IMG/VR virus record: IMGVR_UViG_3300036853_000113
Location: 1 to 61,626 of that record
Strand: one strand, 5' to 3'
DNA length: 61,626 nucleotides
DNA from: a virus
Part shown: positions 3,285 to 48,516 of the stretch, piece after piece
How the letters are laid out: the number at the start of each line of letters is the position of its first letter
Numbering within the stretch: position 1 is the first letter of the stretch
Program-made: the position numbers and the translations under genes
The notes under the pieces: generated by a model
Seen by the model: the letters and a program-made list of their open reading frames with translations, nothing else
What the model was told of the DNA's origin: nothing
The model's database searches: none

Positions 3285-6200
3285 TTACGGCACAATGATC
3301 AGGTATTGCCATTGGTAAGTCGTGCTCGCAGCTAGCGCAGATGAGTTAGCCACAAGTTGAAATGCTGTGCCACTGAGACTCACCCAAGGCTGTTGGGTCG
3401 GCGCGAGGGATGTGGTCGCAATGGTATAGGTTCCGTTCGTGAGACCGGGGCTCAGCATCACTAGCGGCAGCGGGCTGCTGCCATACGCTGTATGGAACGT
3501 AACCGTCAACTGGGTGACAGCGGCGGTTGGGCCAGTGCCGGTTGTAAGCGTGATAATCCCTGCGCTATCAGTGCCGGAGATGGTACAGCTTGCGCCACTT
3601 CCGGCTCCCGCTGCAATCGCAATGGTAGGAGCAACCCCACCGGAAATGATGTGGCCTGTGATCGTCAGATTGCCTGCATTGTCGATGCGAAGACCGCTAG
3701 CACTGCCTGACTGTGGGCAGAGTGTGAAGCCTTGAGTAGCGTTTCCTGCACTGGTGGACCAGATAAGTCCAGCATCCCCGCCCTGCACCACTGCGTTGTA
3801 AGCACCATTGCCTTGATTTGAAAAAATCCGCAAGTTCGACGTGCCAGCGTTAAACCCTAGTTGCGCAACAGCGCTCAACGCGGTTCCGTTGAGCGTCAGA
3901 TTGCCGAGAGCATCGAACTTCGCGACTGTTACCCCGGTTGAAAGAAGGTCCAGCAGGTCCGCAGTCGGCGTCGCGTTCGTGTTGCTCAGAATCAGCGGAG
4001 TGCTGCCGGCGACCGACGTCGCTATGGTGAGGTTCGTGCTGTTGAAGGCGAGCGCAGGACAACCGCCGCCAGCGATGTTGTTGAACTGGACAGCATAGCC
4101 TGCCGCTGAGAAGACAGGAACGCCCGTCGCGCTGATCGAAAACTTGCTCGTGCCGTTGACGCCTAAGTCAAGCAACAGTCCTGCAAACCCCGAGGCTGCA
4201 TTGACGCCGATTGCTGTACCGGACGTGCTCCATGTTGTCCTCGCCGCTGTGCCCGCTGGCTGAACAAGAAGATTTGGCACATTCGTAGTTGCAGTACCGG
4301 CAACATTGGCAGCGCCGCTGATCAGCAGGAGAGCTGTGTTCGTCAGTCCTGTCGTGTTCAGAACCGGCATCGCTCCTGATGGCGTCGCCCATCCCAAGTC
4401 AGTCCAGGATGTGACTGCGCCCCCGTTGACGGTTGCAAGCAACGTCTCTGCTCCGGTTGTCCTGCCATAGATCGTGTAACCAGTAGCGCCCGGGACTGCG
4501 CTCCAGGTGACGGTAATTGTGTTAGCGATCCCGAGTCCGGTCGTGATGCTCGTCTCAGCTGATGGCAACGTCGTGCCTACAGCGTCGAAGGCCGCTACGC
4601 GGTAAAAGCGAGCTGTCGAGGCGGAAAGACTGCCACCAGTCGTCGAAGTGGTAAAGGTTCCGTTCACCGGAGTCGCAAGCTGCGTGACAGTCAATTCGTT
4701 GGGGGCAACCGTCGTCATCTGCCCCGAGGCATTGACGCGTCCAACGATGTTCCCTCTGCTGTCTTTGTAATCAACTAGGTCTGCTGTTTGCGGAGTTATC
4801 CCTTGCTTCAAACCAAGAATGACAATGCCGCCTGCGACAAGGCCGACATTTGGGTACGTCCAAGCTGCAGAGTACGCTCCGGCTGCGCCAAGCTTGTCCG
4901 CACTGATTACCCGGGGATTGGCGGCCAATGGGCCAACTCGCGTGGTCCAACCGGCAGGGGCAGAGAACGTCCCACCACTCTGGGCGGTGAATGCCACGGT
5001 GAGAATTAAATCATTTGCACCCGTCGTCGTGATCGGTCCAGCGGTGTACACCGCGTTATTCATGTTCGATGCCAGAATTGCCTGAACGTCCAGCGGAGAA
5101 ACGGTAGCAATTCCAGAATACTCGTGAATCAAAAGCTGATTCCCAGCCTGCTGAAGATTGGTGTTAATGGAGCACGTTCCACCGGCAACGTTGGTCGCCA
5201 CATAGACGGCAACATAAGAAGTTCCACTCTGTGACCCGGTCTGTGAAAGTAGGGTATAGGCGCTTCCAAGATTGTCATAAATGGCCGCAGGGCCTGCTTG
5301 CGCGCTATATGAAGAGTCGCTGTACTGAACGACCAGGATCAAGTTACCAGCCGTCACCGGGCTGTTGAACGTGACTGCCGCCCCGGACATGGACTGAACT
5401 TTTCCCTGGACGAACGTCGGCGTTGCGTTGGCTACCGTCGAGCCGCCAATCAGGAATGGAACGGTGCCTGCAGCTGGCGCGGTGAGCGTGATGGGGGCTG
5501 CCACTGAAGCTACAGCGCTGATGACTCCGGACGCGATGGTGATGGTCGTTCCGTCGATCTTGACGGCCCCCAGCGTCGTTGTGGTCGCGGTTGGCAAGTC
5601 TGTGCCGACAAGCGCGCGCAGGGAAGAGATGCCTGTCGATCCTGTCGGAGTCGCGAGGACTAAGCCCTGCGCTCCTGATGGCAACGTCCCTGCGGCACTG
5701 ATGACTCCAGCTGCAATTGTGACGGAGGTGCCGTCTATCTTCACGCCGCCGAGAGTCGTCGTCGTCGCAATCGGCAGACGCGCAGCAGGCAGAGTGCCGC
5801 TCGTGATATTCGAAGCGGACAATGTGCCCGTTACGGTCCCACTTACCGTAAGATTGCCGGTCTGGATCATGTTGCCGCTGGCATCGAGGCGCAGCCCACC
5901 AGTGCCGAATATAGGTACGATTGCGAGTGACCCGGGGTTGTTCCCGTCGATGCTGTACGTGATCGCGTTGTCTGTTGTCAGGATGACTGGATTCAAACTA
6001 AGCGGTGCTGCTTCTCCTGCTCCATACATGCTGATCCGGCCATTAGACGTCGAGCTGATCGCGGACAGAGCTAAGCCAGCCGCGATGAAGCTACCCGTAC
6101 CCGTCACATCCACGGAACCATTCAGCATGGTCAGACTGGTGACGACGAGAGTGCTGTTCAAGTTGACCGCACCGCTTGCCGTGAGCGTGGTTGTCGTTAT

Positions 6201-23430: not shown

Positions 23431-24654
23431 TTAAGCGTGGAAGGGCGAAGTGCTGAACGATCCGCTGACGAACGCATTCGGGCGTTTGGTCAACAGCGCC
23501 AAGCGCTTCTCTGCCCTGATCGCGACGAGGTTGCGCAGGAAGTAATCCTGATTCTCCGTCGAGATTTCCACTTGCATTTCCATGCGGTCACGAATCTCGC
23601 AGGCAATGGGGTTGCCGTTGCCGACGAGGAAGTGACCCGGTGCAATCGTGGTCGTGTACACCACGTCGAGGCCGAACAAGCGAGGCGTCGCGTTCACTTG
23701 CGGATCGCCAAGGATGTACCGACCGAAGCCATCTTTCGTCAAACGAATCGTCCACCAGTCGTTCGTGTTGAGCACGACGAAGGTCGGGTCGATCTCGTTT
23801 GCAGCATTGATCTGCTGCACCGCTGTGCCGATGACGTCGATATAGGTCCAGCCATGTGCCGATTGCAGCTGACTCGGCAGATACGCCGCAGCCTGCGGTA
23901 AGAGGCCATGAAGGTTTTCGCCCGTATCATCACCGGCTAAGAGTTGGTTTTCCTCCTCCAAGTTGATGTAGTACGGAAGCGAAGACTGAATGAGGCCGAG
24001 CAGTTCGCCGAAGTCGTCGAGTACCTGCTTGGTCGCGGGGAGCCACGTTGCGATCAGGCGAACCTTCTCGCTGATCGACGTGAAGGTGAGCGCGTTCTCA
24101 GGTTTGAGACTCGCTTCAGGAACCATCCCGCCTAGTCCTAGCGGCGTGCTGACTTTCACGAAGTCGACAACCTGCATGGTGGTAGGCCGCGAGGAAAGCA
24201 GGTCCCGCAGCTTTAGTACCTGCCTCGCCTCGGTCGTGACGCCGGGAGAGCGGTCGATCTGCAACACCCCCGAGGTCGCGACGCCAAGCGGTGAGAGAGG
24301 ATCGCCCCCAGACGTGCCGGTCGCCGTCGCGCTGATGATGTTCTTACGGTTCATCAGCTCGATGACGTCGCGCCCCTTCAGGTGCAGCACTGCGCTGCCA
24401 CGCTTGTCCTTCATCAGCCGCTGAATGCTCTCGCACTCCTTGACTGTTTTGACGAGCGTCGGGCCTTCGCCATGATCGGCAATCTGCTTGTTGGCTAGCT
24501 TCACATCAAGCGCGTCGACCTGCGCCTGAAGCTCGACCAGCGTGGTTTTGGTTGAGTCGAGTGTGGCTCCGAGCGTTTTCTTTTCGTCGGCAGCCTTCTC
24601 GAAATGGGTCTTCAGCTCTGCCTGCAGAGCTGTCAACTGTTCTGTAAGTTCCAT
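23431..24654 (-). CDS. Major capsid protein, HK97 fold
   Basis: This 407-residue protein starts at the ATG with an AAGGA site 8 bases upstream. The N-terminal 100 residues are a coiled-coil delta domain (TEQLTALQAELKTHFEKAAD), expected to be removed by the upstream protease. The body shows ATWLPATKQVLDDFGELLGL, the E-loop and spine region, then WWTIRLTKDGFGRYILGDP and the C-terminal RAEKRLALLTKRPNAFV. These are classic HK97-family capsid blocks. The neighbours (protease, portal) agree. Confidence 0.95.
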   Translation of the reverse strand: MELTEQLTALQAELKTHFEKAADEKKTLGATLDSTKTTLVELQAQVDALDVKLANKQIADHGEGPTLVKTVKECESIQRLMKDKRGSAVLHLKGRDVIELMNRKNIISATATGTSGGDPLSPLGVATSGVLQIDRSPGVTTEARQVLKLRDLLSSRPTTMQVVDFVKVSTPLGLGGMVPEASLKPENALTFTSISEKVRLIATWLPATKQVLDDFGELLGLIQSSLPYYINLEEENQLLAGDDTGENLHGLLPQAAAYLPSQLQSAHGWTYIDVIGTAVQQINAANEIDPTFVVLNTNDWWTIRLTKDGFGRYILGDPQVNATPRLFGLDVVYTTTIAPGHFLVGNGNPIACEIRDRMEMQVEISTENQDYFLRNLVAIRAEKRLALLTKRPNAFVSGSFSTSPFHA

Positions 24655-40282: not shown

Positions 40283-41196
40283 CAACTTACAGAATCCCAA
40301 TCAGCAATGGGATCTTCGCTCATCGTAAGCGGATCGGGGCAGCGATATGGGTATTTCTGTGGCTGATCGACAAGACGACGAAAGAGGTGGAAGCAGTGGA
40401 CGGTGAAAGCATGGACGGCTTGGTATTCGGTGGTCGCCCGGTCACGATGAGCGCAGTCGCCGGAGACCTACAAATGTCGATCAACGGCGTCCGTGATCAG
40501 CTTAGTCAGCTTTTGAAAGGTGGTTATATCCGGGCGATTCAACATGGTGCCGGAATTGCAAATGGGTACGCAGTTCTTAACTCGAAAAAATGGGGCAGGA
40601 GCGGTACCCACGAGGAAGAGTCTGAAGCTGTAGTAGACCCCACCGGAAAACTGGAGGGGTCCACCGGAAAAGTAGAGGGGCCACCCATCGGAAAAGTAGA
40701 GGGGGTCCACCGGAAAACTGTGGGGGGTCCACCGGAAAACTGTGGGGGGTCCACCGGAAAACTCCCACAGCATAATAGGAAAGACAATACAAACAATACA
40801 AAACAATCCAATACAACCAACGGAGAGTTGACGGGGGATCTGACTCTGTTCGGTGACGACTTCCTGACTCCCGAGCAGGCGAAGGCTCGTGCGGAGTCTG
40901 AAGCGCTAGCTAAGGTCTGGAATCACTACCTCGAACAGACTGGCCGCAACAGCAACATTTACGAGTTCTCCGAGTCGCGACGCGATAAGGGTCTGCTTCG
41001 CCTGAGAGAGTGCGCACAGAAGGCTGGTGGCGACTACGACAAAGCCGCCCAGCTGATGTGTGTCTCTATCGACGCGCTCGTTGCTTCCGACTGGCACGCG
41101 GGCCGTGATCCGAGAACTCACGGTAAACGATACCTCGATTGGGAACGCAACTTGTTCAAGAGCTATGACCAGATGGAAAAGTGGTGGAACGAATGA
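40279..41196 (+). CDS. Replication initiator, lambda O-like, with internal origin repeats
   Basis: This 305-residue protein has an N-terminal winged helix at residues 1-100 (GAAIWVFLWLIDKTTKEVEA, then VTMSAVAGDLQMSINGVRDQ with LSQLLKGGYIRAI). A low-complexity linker at 115-190 is coded by six DNA iterons and an A-rich stretch. The C-terminal helical domain at 200-305 is LAKVWNHYLEQTGRNSNIYE and YLDWERNLFKSYDQ. Carrying the origin inside the initiator gene is the plan of lambda O. The downstream primase-helicase overlaps by 4 bases. It should bind the iterons and load the helicase. Confidence 0.82.
   Translation: MTTYRIPISNGIFAHRKRIGAAIWVFLWLIDKTTKEVEAVDGESMDGLVFGGRPVTMSAVAGDLQMSINGVRDQLSQLLKGGYIRAIQHGAGIANGYAVLNSKKWGRSGTHEEESEAVVDPTGKLEGSTGKVEGPPIGKVEGVHRKTVGGPPENCGGSTGKLPQHNRKDNTNNTKQSNTTNGELTGDLTLFGDDFLTPEQAKARAESEALAKVWNHYLEQTGRNSNIYEFSESRRDKGLLRLRECAQKAGGDYDKAAQLMCVSIDALVASDWHAGRDPRTHGKRYLDWERNLFKSYDQMEKWWNE
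40640..40825 (+). repeat. Six iterons plus A-rich stretch: candidate replication origin
   Basis: Units of the form CCACCGGAAAAST-GNGGGGGT begin at 40640, 40661, 40685, 40707, 40729 and 40751, with steps of 21, 24, 22, 22 and 22 bp. The last two full units are identical. Because 22 is not a multiple of 3, the repeats are translated in changing frames, so the DNA sequence and not the protein repeat is conserved. From about 40771 to 40825 follows a stretch very rich in A and nearly free of G and T on this strand, a likely unwinding element. Confidence 0.8.
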
Positions 41197-43436: not shown

Positions 43437-43565
43437 TCATGTCGCGGTAGGGCCAGCCTGGGCCCGGTATGGCGTGACTGGGCACGGCGGGGCAAGGCGA
43501 GGGCTCGCGTCCTCAGAGGCGCGAGCACAACACTAACGAACGATCTCACGGCGAAAGAGAGAGCT
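43437..43565 (+). repeat. Family B module 1: GGCNN pentamer run plus hairpin
   Basis: After the stop of the preceding gene, pentamers in register read GGTAG GGCCA GCCTG GGCCC GGTAT GGCGT GACTG GGCAC GGCGG GGCAA GGCGA. They end in a hairpin with arms GCTCGCG (43503-43509) and CGCGAGC (43520-43526) and an inner CCTC/GAGG pairing. An A/C-rich tail (CACAACACTAACGAACG) leads to the next gene. GG every five bases also fits a two-tier G-quadruplex pattern in RNA. Confidence 0.85.
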
Positions 43566-43570
43566 TCCCA

Positions 43571-44206
43571 ATGTACAAAACACTAACGCGCACTCTTGTT
43601 GGCGTTTCTCCGCTACTGATGCACAACGGACGGTTGGCGAATCCGCTGGATCCTATTGCAAAGATGATGAAAGAGGTCACGTCAAAGCGGAAAAAAACAG
43701 ATGACGATTACGAGCTGATGTCGAACATTGAGTGGCTGGGTTCGATCTACACCACCGATGACCTCACGGTCAAGATTCAGGGCTACAAGGTAACGGTCGC
43801 GTGCTTCGGCCAACTCTGTATTCCGGGGGAAAACGTGGCGGCGTTGCTAGCGTTCGCCGGAGCCAAGTCACGCCGGAAGCAGGCGTTCACCGCAGGAATT
43901 TTAATCGAGGGCGACTTCCCGTTGCAGCTGGCTAGTTCGCTGAGCATTCCCGAGATATTCGCAAAACCGGGTTATCGCCTCATCGAAGGAGTGCGCGTTG
44001 GGAACTCTCGTGTGATGCGGACACGCGCTATCTTTCGTTCGTGGAAGCTCCCCCTTCGGATTCAGTATCTTCCGCAGTTGCTTAATCCCCGCGAAGTAGA
44101 TGAGACGCTCATCCTCGGTGGTCAGATCGGAGGGCTCGGAGACTATCGCCCGAAGTATGGCCGGTTCTCTGTGGAGAATGTCGCAGGAGAGGCGCAGGCG
44201 GCCTAA
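43571..44206 (+). CDS. Conserved phage protein of unknown function
   Basis: This 211-residue protein starts TLTRTLVGVSPLLMHNGRLA, followed by DPIAKMMKEVTSKRKKTDDD and later CIPGENVAALLAFAGAKSRR, GDFPL, VMRTRAIFRSWKLPLRIQYL and a final LGDYRPKYGRFSVE. I recognise this block order from many siphovirus genomes, where the protein is uncharacterised. The basic first third would suit nucleic acid binding. It lies between two groups of pentamer modules. Confidence 0.7.
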   Translation: MYKTLTRTLVGVSPLLMHNGRLANPLDPIAKMMKEVTSKRKKTDDDYELMSNIEWLGSIYTTDDLTVKIQGYKVTVACFGQLCIPGENVAALLAFAGAKSRRKQAFTAGILIEGDFPLQLASSLSIPEIFAKPGYRLIEGVRVGNSRVMRTRAIFRSWKLPLRIQYLPQLLNPREVDETLILGGQIGGLGDYRPKYGRFSVENVAGEAQAA

Positions 44207-44362
44207 ACAGAATAGACGGTTGCATCAGGGCAAGGTGTGAGCGTGGCTTGGTAAGGCGGTGGCGATGGCGCGGCTGGGCGGGGTATGGCAGGATCCGGTT
44301 TGGCATGGTTTGGTTCGGAACCGCGTTCCCAGGAGCGCGGAAGTTTAGTAAGTCAGTCTCAC
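44207..44362 (+). repeat. Family B module 2: pentamer run plus hairpin
   Basis: From about 44229 the sequence steps GGCAA GGTGT ... GGCTT GGTAA GGCGG, one irregular 7-base step, then GGCGC GGCTG GGCGG GGTAT GGCAG GATCC GGTTT GGCAT GGTTT GGTTC. It ends at about 44322-44341 in a hairpin with arms CCGCGTTCC and GGAGCGCGG (one G-T pair). The tail GAAGTTTAGTAAGTCAG follows. It has the same design as module 1 with different variable bases. Confidence 0.85.
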
Positions 44363-44492
44363 ACGCGGCGGGACACGGCTTGGCGTGGCGGGGCTAGGCG
44401 GGGATCGGCACGACTAGGCGGGGCAAGGCAGGGACCCGCGCTCTCAGAAGCGCGGAAAGTTTAAGAAACGATTTCCTCGAACTTCTCGTTCA
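44363..44492 (+). repeat. Family B module 3: pentamer run plus hairpin
   Basis: A run in perfect 5-bp register: GGCGG GACAC GGCTT GGCGT GGCGG GGCTA GGCGG GGATC GGCAC GACTA GGCGG GGCAA GGCAG. The hairpin arms CCGCGCT and AGCGCGG (about 44437-44456) enclose CTCAGA. The tail is AAAGTTTAAGAAACGATT. No gap or insertion breaks the period over 13 units, although most third to fifth bases vary. Confidence 0.87.
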
Positions 44493-44655
44493 TGGCTTGG
44501 TGGGAACGAGGTGCGGCACGGCGGGGTGAGGCCCGATGAGGCCCGGTATGGCAGTGTAAGGCGTGGCCCGGCTGGGTGTGGAATGGCCTGGTGTGGTGTG
44601 GCAGGGGGCCGCGTTTTCCGGAACGCGGTCACAACTAAACAAACGGAGATGGGAA
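44493..44655 (+). repeat. Family B module 4: longest pentamer run plus hairpin
   Basis: About 22 pentamers run from GGCTT GGTGG through GGCAC GGCGG GGTGA GGCCC GATGA GGCCC GGTAT to GGTGT GGTGT GGCAG, with one 6-base step. The hairpin arms CCGCGTT and AACGCGG (about 44610-44629) enclose TTCCGG. The tail CACAACTAAACAAACGGAG resembles that of module 1 and provides the GGAG ribosome site of the next gene. Confidence 0.85.
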
Positions 44656-45099
44656 ATGCAATCACGGTATCCACTCGACTGGGAGTTACTACAAAAGGGC
44701 GACGTGCTCGACGCTGAGACGCTGAAGGATATAACTGGAAAGACGCCGGGAAGTGATGAGTTTCGATTCGCGTGCATGGGCCTGCAAGCATTGATTCAGG
44801 AGAAGACAGGCTTCACTGTGAAGCTGCCGAGTGATAACTCACTGCGCGTGTTGACAGACCCAGAGGCAGCAGCGCACAACGAGCGCCTGTTCTGGCAATT
44901 CATGCGGTCGATGGTTACACGCCACACCCTGAACTGCTCTGTCGACGTCGACAATCTAGAGGCGACACAGCGAGCGCAGCATGACCGCACGCTGCTTGCT
45001 CAATCGCGTTACGTATCAGCAGTGGCGCAGACGACGAAAGAGATTGTGCTTGCAAGAAATCCTCCCGAGCCAGAACCGCTCGACGATGGAACGCGATGA
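44656..45099 (+). CDS. Hypothetical protein, 147 residues
   Basis: The start is the ATG after the module 4 tail; a longer GTG-started frame would run back through the pentamer array and is rejected. Visible blocks: YPLDWELLQKGDVLDAETLK, FACMGLQALIQEKTG and ERLFWQFMRSMVTRHTLNCS. It is helical and resembles phage proteins placed before HNH nucleases, but no function is known. The stop overlaps the next start (ATGA). Confidence 0.62.
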   Translation: MQSRYPLDWELLQKGDVLDAETLKDITGKTPGSDEFRFACMGLQALIQEKTGFTVKLPSDNSLRVLTDPEAAAHNERLFWQFMRSMVTRHTLNCSVDVDNLEATQRAQHDRTLLAQSRYVSAVAQTTKEIVLARNPPEPEPLDDGTR

Positions 45100-45617
45100 T
45101 CACGACGAAGGCATTCAATGAGGTCACCGCGCAGAAGCGTCGCTCGATGGCGGCGCGGCTGAAGCCTCGTTACTGGAAGTCAGGCAAGCGCGCAGGCATG
45201 GTGCGCACGCCAGGGTGCGAGCTGCCGTTCAGCCTGCACCAGTTTCGCCAGTGGGCAATGGAGAAGGTCGGCCTCGGCATCGTGTCATGTCACTACTGCC
45301 CTCGGCCTGTCGATGTGTTGAGCTTCGAGCCGGATCACTATGTACCGATCGCACTCGGCGGAAGCTTCGGCCTCGACAACCTTGTGGTGAGCTGTAGCGA
45401 CTGCAACAAAATGAAGGACTCGATGCTGCCGCAGGATTTCATCGACCTGATGAAGTTCCTCGAAACAAATATGTCGCGAGTGAGTGCGAACAACGTCACG
45501 AAGCGCCTGCGAGCTGGCTCGATGGGCATCAAAAACAGATTTCATAAACCGTCAGTTGAGGGAGCGAAGAAACCGCCTGCGCCTGTCGCGACGACGCAGG
45601 AGATGGATTTCTTCTAG
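45096..45617 (+). CDS. HNH endonuclease
   Basis: In this 173-residue protein, CHYCPRPVDVLSFEPDHYVP, IALGGSFGLDNLVVSCSDCN and KMKDSMLP form a clear HNH core with two Cys pairs and the catalytic DH. The N-terminal half is very basic (KPRYWKSGKRAG). The last residues (EMDFF) end at a TAG that lies in a degenerate repeat unit: array 2 of family A starts at once. It is one of three HNH genes in this genome. Confidence 0.85.
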   Translation: MITTKAFNEVTAQKRRSMAARLKPRYWKSGKRAGMVRTPGCELPFSLHQFRQWAMEKVGLGIVSCHYCPRPVDVLSFEPDHYVPIALGGSFGLDNLVVSCSDCNKMKDSMLPQDFIDLMKFLETNMSRVSANNVTKRLRAGSMGIKNRFHKPSVEGAKKPPAPVATTQEMDFF

Positions 45618-46196
45618 CCATCTTCCTAGCGAGCACCAGAAGAACTGAGCGAGCCATGTAACCCAATAGCACCACGAGACAGTGAGCGAGCCAAGCACAG
45701 CGAGAGAGCACCAGCAAATGAGAGCGAGCCATAACATGCGCGAGCACCAGATAAGTCGAGCGCACAGCCGGATGACATGCGAGCACCAATAACGGAGAGC
45801 GAGCCACGAGACGTGAGAGCACCAACAACCCAGAGCGTCAGCCACTTCACTTGCGAGTACCAATCATGCGGAGCGCAGCCATGAGAAAGGAGAGCACCAA
45901 GATTGCTGAGTGAGCCAAGATGCCTGAGAGCACCAGAAAAAGAGAGCGCAGCCAAACAGCGCGAGGGCACCAATGGTAAGGAGCGAGCCCGGATATGGCG
46001 AGAGTGCCAACAGGAGTGAGCGAGCCAACACAGTAGAGAGCGCCAGGAAGAAAGAGCGCAGCCACAATGAACGCGAGCACCAGCGCTCCAGAGCGAGCCA
46101 ATGTAGTAGAGGGCGCCATTGACGCCGAGCGAGTCAAGCAATTCGAGAGCACCCAGAGCACAGAACGATACCAGTTACACAAAGGAGCGCAACACC
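45615..46196 (+). repeat. Family A repeat array 2 (largest, about 30 units)
   Basis: Alternating cores GAGAGCACCA (variants GCGAGCACCA, GAGAGCGCCA, GAGGGCGCCA) and GAGCGAGCCA (variants GAGCGCAGCCA, GAGTGAGCCA) run without interruption from 45629 to about 46173. Spacers are nearly always exactly 8 bases. Where a core is longer by one to three bases, the step grows to 19-21 but the spacer stays 8. The spacer sequences share nothing. The array fills the whole gap between two genes and merges into the ribosome site of the next one. Confidence 0.93.
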
Positions 46197-47108
46197 ATGA
46201 CTGATCTTGTTTTAGAGCCGCTGCAACGTCTTACGAAAGACCTTGCGAACGCCTCCATCACCCTCACCGTCCGCGAGGCGCGTTACCTCGTCGATGCTTA
46301 CTACATGCTTCAGGAGAATCGCATCGCTGCTGATCATCAGGTGCGCACGCTCATTAAGGGCGACGAGCCGCATCAGGTGATTGAATGGCTCGCGGCTCAG
46401 AATGAAGGGCTTGAGCACCAGATCAAGCGCGCGCTCGACAAGTGGACGGACGGCAATCCTGTCGGCGTGTGGGCGAAAAGCATCTGCGGTATCGGTCCTG
46501 TCATCAGTGCAGGACTGCTCGCGCACATCGACATTGCCGGATGCCCCACGGTCGGCCACATCTGGAGCTTCGCCGGTCTGGACCCGACGAAGAAGTGGAA
46601 CAAGGGCGAGAAGCGGCCATACAACGCATCGTTGAAGTCGCTCGTCGCATTCAAGCTGGGCGAGTCGTTCGTCAAGGTTCAGGCGAATCAGAACGACATC
46701 TACGGGAAGGTATATGTCGAGCGGAAGAAGCTGGAGCAGGAACGCAACGAGGCGCAGCTCTTCGCAGCGCAGGCGAAGGTCGGGCTGGAGCGCGTAAAGA
46801 AGACGACGGACGCGCATAAATACTACAAAGAAGGCAAGCTGCCGCCAGCGCAGATACACGCACGAGCACGACGCTATGCGGTGAAGCTCTTCCTCGCGCA
46901 TTACCACGCGGCTGCGTTCTTCTCGCGCTTCGACATGATGCCGCCGTTTCCGTATGCTTTCAGTCATCTCAAGAGCCACGTACATTTTCTTGCACCGCCT
47001 AACTGCCATTTGATCGAAGGCATGCCGGCTGCGCTTGCACGTTATGAGCGCGAGCTACTGGAGAGTCAGGCAACCAAAGCCGTCGAGAGTACCCAGATTG
47101 CTGAGTGA
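46197..47108 (+). CDS. Helix-hairpin-helix protein related to the IS110 transposase C-terminal domain
   Basis: The middle of this 303-residue protein reads VWAKSICGIGPVISAGLLAH, DIAGCPTVGHIWSFAGLDPT and KKWNKGEKRPYNASLK, close to the Transposase_20 (IS116/IS110/IS902) helix-hairpin-helix block. Two expected transposase features are missing. No N-terminal RuvC-like DEDD domain is visible, and the usual Ser-Ser-Gly catalytic loop is replaced by KKWNKGEK. The C-terminal third (IHARARRYAVKLFLAHYHAA) is basic and helical. Similar proteins occur in other phages. Family A arrays lie on both sides, and its last codons and stop are themselves repeat units. Confidence 0.75.
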   Translation: MTDLVLEPLQRLTKDLANASITLTVREARYLVDAYYMLQENRIAADHQVRTLIKGDEPHQVIEWLAAQNEGLEHQIKRALDKWTDGNPVGVWAKSICGIGPVISAGLLAHIDIAGCPTVGHIWSFAGLDPTKKWNKGEKRPYNASLKSLVAFKLGESFVKVQANQNDIYGKVYVERKKLEQERNEAQLFAAQAKVGLERVKKTTDAHKYYKEGKLPPAQIHARARRYAVKLFLAHYHAAAFFSRFDMMPPFPYAFSHLKSHVHFLAPPNCHLIEGMPAALARYERELLESQATKAVESTQIAE

Positions 47109-47368
47109 GCCACGCATGACGGAGAGCACCACAAACCGTGAGCGAACCAAGTAGGTTGAGAGCACCCGGAACGACGAGTGAGCCATCACGCGGGAGAGCA
47201 CCACAAAACACGAGCGCAGCCAGAACTCCTGCGAGCACCAAGAATAGAGCGAGCCAATGATTCGGAGAGCACCAGTTGGGAGTGAGCGAGCCAAAGAAAA
47301 AAGGAGAGCACCACCAATGCAGAGTGAGCCAGCGACCAAGATAGCACCGGAGCAGGAGAGCGCGATCA
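47085..47368 (+). repeat. Family A repeat array 3, extending into both flanking genes
   Basis: About sixteen units start at 47085 and 47103 (inside the 3' end and stop codon of the previous gene), then 47122, 47140, 47158, 47176, 47194, 47212, 47231, 47247, 47265, 47284 and 47304. Further units at 47322, 47340 and 47358 lie inside the next coding sequence. Steps are 18-20 bp except one of 16. The conserved 10-mers appear in coding DNA as the codons for ESTQIAE at the C-terminus and QSEPATKIAPEQESA at the N-terminus. Confidence 0.9.
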
Positions 47369-48331: not shown

Positions 48332-48516
48332 CCACGAGGGGCTGAGAGCACCAAACGATGCGAGTGAGCCAAGTAGCCAGAGAGCGCCAAGGTCGGCGAG
48401 TGAGCCAGTGACCATGAGAGCACCATTGCACTACGCGCGAACCAATTACGCCGCGAGCACCACACTTGTCGAGTGAGCCAGGATGTCTGAGAGCACCACA
48501 CACGGAGAGCGCATTT
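48332..48516 (+). repeat. Family A repeat array 4
   Basis: Units start at 48344, 48362, 48380, 48398, 48416, 48435, 48453, 48471 and 48489, with a last partial one at 48507. All steps are 18 bp except one of 19. The A/B alternation is kept throughout. There is no gene in most of this interval; a small protein gene may begin near its end. Confidence 0.9.

Follow-up and report, generated by a model that had tools for sequence, protein, structure and literature searches.

A GGY-NN repeat locus in a tailed phage genome is very probably a VIPR system

Introduction

Four runs of short repeats, each closed by a hairpin, lie around 44 kb in the window analyzed here (the 61,626 nucleotides of IMG/VR record IMGVR_UViG_3300036853_000113), and raise the question of whether they are regulatory sites, purely structural elements, or RNAs with a partner protein. 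VIPR (Viral Interference Programmable Repeat) is a CRISPR-related phage weapon described in a 2026 preprint, made up by the phage RAMP protein Vipr, the accessory gene vap, and vrRNAs featuring 9-16 GGY/NN pentamers and a 3' tail (PMC13142463). The NN dinucleotides pair with double-stranded DNA, one base of the target being skipped at each unit; Vipr coats the vrRNA via the GGY triplets, transcription of the target is blocked, and vap enhances protection (PMC13142463). VIPR systems have been sorted into seven types, and proposed as a possible ancestor of CRISPR with a non-contiguous guide code (PMC13142463). The locus belongs to this known, very recent kind of system: its best explanation, very probably the correct one, is a VIPR locus of a tailed phage in the order vrRNA1 - vipr - vrRNA2 - vrRNA3 - vrRNA4 - vap.

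Results and discussion

Anatomy of the repeat modules

The original prediction had described four same-strand modules sharing one plan (a run, a hairpin, an A-rich stretch), and this plan is present in the sequence. The modules span 43446-44640 and are made of GGY-NN pentamers, the variable regions being:

43446..43500, + strand, vrRNA1 variable region: 11 pentamers, 9 GGY; run picked up by chain scoring
44229..44316, + strand, vrRNA2 variable region: 17 units, 15 GGY; three units 6 bases long
44367..44431, + strand, vrRNA3 variable region: 13 pentamers, 10 GGY
44494..44604, + strand, vrRNA4 variable region: 22 units, 18 GGY

The NN series of vrRNA1 reads AG CA TG CC AT GT TG AC GG AA GA. The core of vrRNA4 (44510..44604) is formed by 19 pentamers in perfect register, the three further units at 44494-44509 being less regular. 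The 5-bp register originally proposed holds overall, but not strictly, as three units of vrRNA2 (GGTGTG, GGCGGT, GGCGAT) and one of vrRNA4 (GAACGA) are 6 bases long, and some units lack GG. Steps of 6 bases are rare: across all Vipr loci they account for 1 out of 463 strictly flanked steps. GGCGGT and GGCGAT lie back to back at 44255-44266.

GG pairs at lag 5 number 37 in the 44207-44655 interval, where dinucleotide shuffles give 14.1 +/- 3.4 (at most 26, n=2000), and the autocorrelation proposed as a check is thus confirmed. The excess is strong in vrRNA2 (12 vs. 3.9) and vrRNA4 (15 vs. 5.0) taken alone, mild in vrRNA1 (7 vs. 3.1 +/- 1.5) and vrRNA3 (9 vs. 4.8 +/- 1.9) when compared to their own GG-rich shuffles; the case for the latter two as modules is therefore made by their common plan and by comparison between loci.

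Each of the four runs is closed by a GC-rich hairpin with a stem of 7-10 bp, followed by an A-rich stretch, so that a structured 3' tail follows the repeats in 4/4 runs:

43503..43526, + strand, vrRNA1 3' tail hairpin: GCTCGCGTC-CTCAGA-GGCGCGAGC, then ACAACACTAACGAAC; fold z -2.4
44321..44340, + strand, vrRNA2 tail hairpin: CCGCGTTC-CCAG-GAGCGCGG
44436..44455, + strand, vrRNA3 tail hairpin: CCGCGCT-CTCAGA-AGCGCGG
44607..44630, + strand, vrRNA4 tail hairpin: GGCCGCGTTT-TCCG-GAACGCGGTC

Stem sequences differ, and loops share CTCAG/CCAG/TCCG. The region found no match in Rfam, nor among phages by blastn. Other tandem repeats reside in the window at 1195-1242 (9-base unit GGCACAACA, 5.3 copies) and 40640-40763 (22-base unit CCACCGGAAAACTGGAGGGGGT, 5.6 copies).

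The vipr and vap genes

The original prediction had overlooked the protein gene located between vrRNA1 and vrRNA2, which is part of the system. A second gene follows vrRNA4:

43571..44206, + strand, vipr: 211 aa, predicted RAMP-fold guide-RNA-binding protein (homology and AF2; phrog_4652)
44656..45099, + strand, vap (VIPR accessory): 147 aa, homologous to the phrog_5926 family, which follows vipr in Felixounavirus

As judged by homology and predicted fold, 43571-44206 encodes a Vipr protein. The product matches 36pp_D, the SUSP1 Vipr protein, with E=1e-23 in a pairwise phmmer comparison, and E=2.9e-62 when the family profile is used. Its AlphaFold (AF2) model has a pLDDT of 92, and the top 50 PDB matches of the model found by Foldseek are all CRISPR RAMP proteins or complexes, the best (E 8.7e-5) being Csm subunits. 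The glycine loop GLGDYRPKYGRF, typical of RAMPs, is conserved, residues G184, G188 and G197 being invariant in 53 sequences. The locus hence encodes a RAMP homologue with RRM core and G-loop, as VIPR systems do. Neither Vipr nor vap has a model in Pfam, NCBIfam or PADLOC. The notion that the RNA is bound through its repeat by a protein found support: the partner would be Vipr, encoded next to the runs, given its homology and the pull-down of SUSP1 vrRNAs with Vipr in the preprint (PMC13142463).

The vap product matches phrog_5926 in profile comparison (hhalign, 95%, E=2.7e-8), is 71% identical to the vap of the nearest relative, and is akin to the family that neighbours the type II Vipr in SUSP1-like phages. 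The gene at 44656-45099 is thus a nearby vap, homologous to the one placed after vipr in Felixounavirus and others; a small second gene follows vipr in most Vipr loci. The AF2 model (pLDDT 87) has no significant match among PDB folds, and DNA binding by vap is only suggested.

Vipr loci in other phages

Vipr relatives were found in IMG/VR contigs, in Felixounavirus, and in phages of Pseudomonas, Gordonia and Mycobacterium. Their identity is about 31-45%, except for one close relative at 66% (locus L012). In an automatic scan, same-strand GGY-NN runs were detected near vipr in 82 out of 89 loci. In the nearest relative the NN dinucleotides differ, the GGY plan and the tail hairpins being alike. 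Tandem GGY-NN repeats with constant GGY and hypervariable NN are hence found, and the constraint expected in related phages was borne out, GGY being kept and NN varied in the nearest relative and in most other Vipr loci. The bases at positions 4-5, originally taken as free, are instead the informative ones, and constitute the guide.

A clade lacking GGY runs (L073-L076 and L079) has G(C/T)T-NN pentamers (GYT-NN) upstream, as in L075 at 3400-3750; this is a variant repeat consensus. In L015 (4001-4552) the vipr frame is broken at codon 127 and no GGY run is found nearby, the gene being in decay or frame-shifted. In Gordonia phage MakoManhole (L008, 2985-3150), pentamer runs are separated by a repeated T-arm-like hairpin (GGTGGGGTTCGACTCC[CT]CACC).

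Vipr identity, GGY-NN runs flanking the gene in most loci, and the vap homologue together identify the locus as a VIPR system. All the defining features of VIPR that can be tested in sequence are present. The identification draws directly on the anatomy of the locus, the homology and fold of the protein, a layout conserved among loci, and a statistical match between guides and a capsid gene (see below).

Two other explanations had been weighed before the Vipr match, and were dropped in view of the RAMP neighbour, the linkage to vipr, and the capsid matches. The repeats might be G-quadruplex-forming or purely structural, with no protein partner, as GG pairs recurring every five bases could suggest. 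Formation of quadruplexes does not need C/T at position 3, though, and entire modules, the tail hairpin aside, do not fold better than shuffled sequence (z about -1); moreover, neither the strict linkage to vipr in 82 out of 89 loci nor the codon-phased matches to the capsid gene would be explained, which makes this idea barely credible. Nor is it needed, once GGY triplets are explained as Vipr-binding spacers.

TRAP binds about 11 NAG triplets separated by spacers of 2-3 nt. The runs could accordingly be cis-acting sites on the phage's own mRNAs, at which a TRAP-like repeat-binding protein autoregulates the operon by attenuation; the five-base register, the 11 units of vrRNA1, the hairpin placed right after each run, and the location of runs upstream of vipr and vap would all fit. 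Yet the conserved protein nearby is of RAMP type rather than a TRAP ring, no terminator-like T run is found 3' of the four hairpins, and the arrays of other phages precede the genes, follow them, or flank them. Since, in addition, NN dinucleotides are hypervariable between relatives and spell capsid-gene sequence, attenuation is very unlikely.

Probable target of the guides

For the VIPR locus, the guides were decoded by the published 1-nt skip rule (PMC13142463), and the whole contig of G001 was scanned with all four guides at skips 0, 1, 2 and 3. G001, which carries the L012 locus, is the nearest relative with a full contig, a syntenic sibling with a 62-kb genome, 66-73% identical to this phage at the nucleotide level in structural genes. 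With skip 1, the best place in the sibling genome is the HK97 major capsid gene for both vrRNA2 (24/34 bases) and vrRNA4 (27/38 bases); skips 0, 2 and 3 gave nothing in the G001 genome. The two capsid sites are 267 bases apart, and share strand and codon phase. The skipped bases are codon wobble bases, as in SUSP1 targets (PMC13142463). The match is partial at the unit level (9/17 for vrRNA2, 12/19 for vrRNA4), and therefore identifies a gene family, not a phage. No target was found for vrRNA1 and vrRNA3. Specification of a DNA target by NN dinucleotides at 1-nt skip is hence seen for vrRNA2 and vrRNA4, as a partial match only.

When the order of dinucleotides was shuffled, the score was reached within the sibling capsid gene in 0/4000 trials for each of the two guides, and genome-wide in G001 in 2/1000 (vrRNA2) and 0/1000 (vrRNA4). 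Guides of other phages have their best match in the sibling capsid gene in 4 out of 211 cases, close to the 2% expected, and no such guide of comparable length attains an equal score. Decoded as codons, vrRNA2 reads [DE][KN][IM][KN]GL[IM]P[HQ]ASP[FL][KN]TT[FL] (sibling capsid: ENLHGLITQASGFNTAL), and vrRNA4 reads LTT[RS][IM]T[HQ]GT[FL]L[IM]GSGSPVA (sibling capsid: YTTSIASGTFLVGSGSPIA). Five units of vrRNA2, located 5' of its two mid-array 6-base units, stay in step with the sibling capsid, three of them fully (F, N, T). As register is kept beyond the 6-base units, the sequence suggests that the extra base can be looped out. The capsid gene was reached after several pattern scans, and the vrRNA2 result alone is therefore not free of selection; the independent part of the evidence is the vrRNA4 result, along with the untouched 5' units of vrRNA2.

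The same two places match less well in the capsid gene of the phage itself:

23434..24693, - strand, own HK97-type major capsid gene: PF05065, E=5.9e-35; homologous sites at 23870 and 23603

Here 22/34 bases (vrRNA2) and 25/38 bases (vrRNA4) are matched, with 9/4000 and 4/4000 shuffles reaching the score. Since the own gene fits less well, the bearer of the true target would most likely be another close relative. Altogether, vrRNA2 and vrRNA4 appear to be antisense to two motifs of the capsid protein, and a capsid gene is the probable target.

An exact target was found neither in IMG/VR nor in 85k genomes by patterns of 8-9 units at skip 1. Patterns from the centres of vrRNA4 and vrRNA1 gave 0 hits in IMG/VR; none of the hits obtained with the vrRNA3 pattern (6), the vrRNA4 3' block (8) and, in genomes, the vrRNA4 5' block (14) extends. 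A second vrRNA2 pattern gave nine hits, two of them capsid genes, and again none extends. The 21 IMG/VR hits of the 8-unit vrRNA2 pattern fall into two protein families, HK97 capsid proteins and a protein with an NMKGLIPQG motif. The latter (DDQFAELAKGGDYIGRMQLYTKSKANMKGLIPQGHYG..., L097-L117), common in IMG/VR, has eight coded residues in common with the vrRNA2 decode; it was discarded as target, as the match does not extend. Decoded peptides had no match in Pfam. By tblastn against phages, the vrRNA4 peptide had no match, and the vrRNA2 peptide a single one, to the major capsid protein of a Klebsiella phage (E=6, by itself not significant). An all-against-all guide search in the fetched Vipr loci gave matches at chance level only, and guides from L012, L013, L014, L016 and L018 gave nothing convincing in four related genomes, the one marginal match being L013 4916 in window 4222 (21/26).

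The guides of the VIPR locus might act on something else, such as a satellite or a host gene, the capsid match being due to chance, or left over from guides that had been copied from the own capsid gene. The missing exact target and the weak match of the own gene would be in line with this, as would the published guides, which mostly match satellites in the SUSP1 clade and prophage regulators in the P. fulva clade (PMC13142463). Two independent guides converge on one gene, though, which makes up about 2% of the genome, and the capsid sites follow the published skip and share strand and codon phase; we consider a target other than the capsid gene rather unlikely.

Proposed mechanism

By analogy with the published VIPR system, transcription of the modules, an RNA-protein complex, DNA binding and silencing may be expected. 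The modules would each yield a small guide transcript, whose variable GGY-NN portion is followed by a hairpin tail at the 3' end. In the manner of Cas7-type RAMPs along crRNA, Vipr subunits would align with the GGY triplets, leaving the NN dinucleotides unbound and able to pair with double-stranded DNA as NNxNNxNN, with one skipped base per unit. Once on the DNA, the complex would keep the target gene from being transcribed. For two guides out of four, the aim would be a pair of conserved motifs in the major capsid gene of a closely related competitor, and silencing of the capsid in a co-infecting or superinfecting sibling would exclude sibling phages or superinfecting relatives. Which phage is targeted, and what is gained, we infer from the present analysis.

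Neighbourhood

VIPR (43.4-45.1 kb) adjoins a second system, TIGR-Tas (45.6-48.5 kb), located 0.5 kb downstream:

45096-45617, HNH endonuclease gene, between vap and the TIGR array
45618-46200, 47105-47260 and 48340-48500, TIGR array on both sides of tas: alternating boxes GAGCGAGCCA / GAGAGCACCA
46197-47108, Tas protein gene: NCBIfam NF052498 TIGR_Tas_endo, E=4e-59, 200 bits vs. a cut-off of 100; 9mty_A, E=1e-11

The TIGR array proceeds by 18-base steps, with boxes ending in CCA and spacers of about 9 bases, and is probably another of the repeat families that had been distinguished from the sequence. The HNH gene could serve VIPR, TIGR-Tas, or neither. A dual-spacer target search with the TIGR array, the query set including truncated spacers, gave nothing above control. 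Tas was found in none of 42 other records of Vipr-bearing phages, many of them being fragments, and is absent from the sibling G001.

We give about even chances to the fuller picture of two unrelated RNA-guided systems side by side, in which VIPR would serve superinfection exclusion against a sibling capsid at two sites, tolerating partial identity to the own capsid, and 6-base units may loop out the extra base with the register kept. The adjacency of VIPR and TIGR-Tas suggests that more than one RNA-guided weapon is stacked in some phages. As natural sequence from an unrelated phage lineage, the locus supports the 1-nt skip rule; the VIPR target it points to is structural, a sibling's major capsid gene. 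Decoded guides turn the question of whom this phage fights into a sequence search.

Comparison with known systems

The RAMP fold and the glycine-rich loop are shared with Class 1 CRISPR RAMPs (Csm3/Cas7; Foldseek E about 1e-4 to 1e-3). The locus differs in having a single small RAMP, with TM-scores of 0.4-0.5; no CRISPR repeats are found at the locus, and no cas match from Pfam or NCBIfam in the neighbouring genes searched, which sets it apart from Class 1 CRISPR-Cas. TIGR-Tas similarly features phage-borne RNA-guided DNA recognition and short repeats, but has alternating edge/loop repeats, contiguous 9-nt spacers and a Nop-domain protein, that is, a different protein and a different code (PMC12045711). 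Edge/loop repeats with 9-nt spacers are absent at 43437-44655, and present at 45618-46200 and beyond.

The VIPR systems of Escherichia phage SUSP1 and of the P. fulva prophage (PMC13142463; PDB 36pp) have in common with this locus homologous Vipr and the vap family, an array split into one upstream vrRNA and three lying farther down, GGY-NN repeats with a structured 3' tail, and targets read with a 1-nt skip that falls on wobble bases. Yet vap comes directly after vipr there, after the vrRNA array here; published vrRNAs have 9-16 regular pentamers, whereas vrRNA4 has 19-22 units, and vrRNA2 has 17, some 6 bases long; tails are simple hairpins here, with differing stem sequences; and the target inferred here is a capsid gene, while the word "capsid" is absent from the main text of the preprint, as is any mention of TIGR. 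Relative to that main text, the locus adds the capsid gene as a probable target, units of 6 bases, the arrangement vrRNA-vipr-vrRNA3x-vap, and a TIGR-Tas system alongside.
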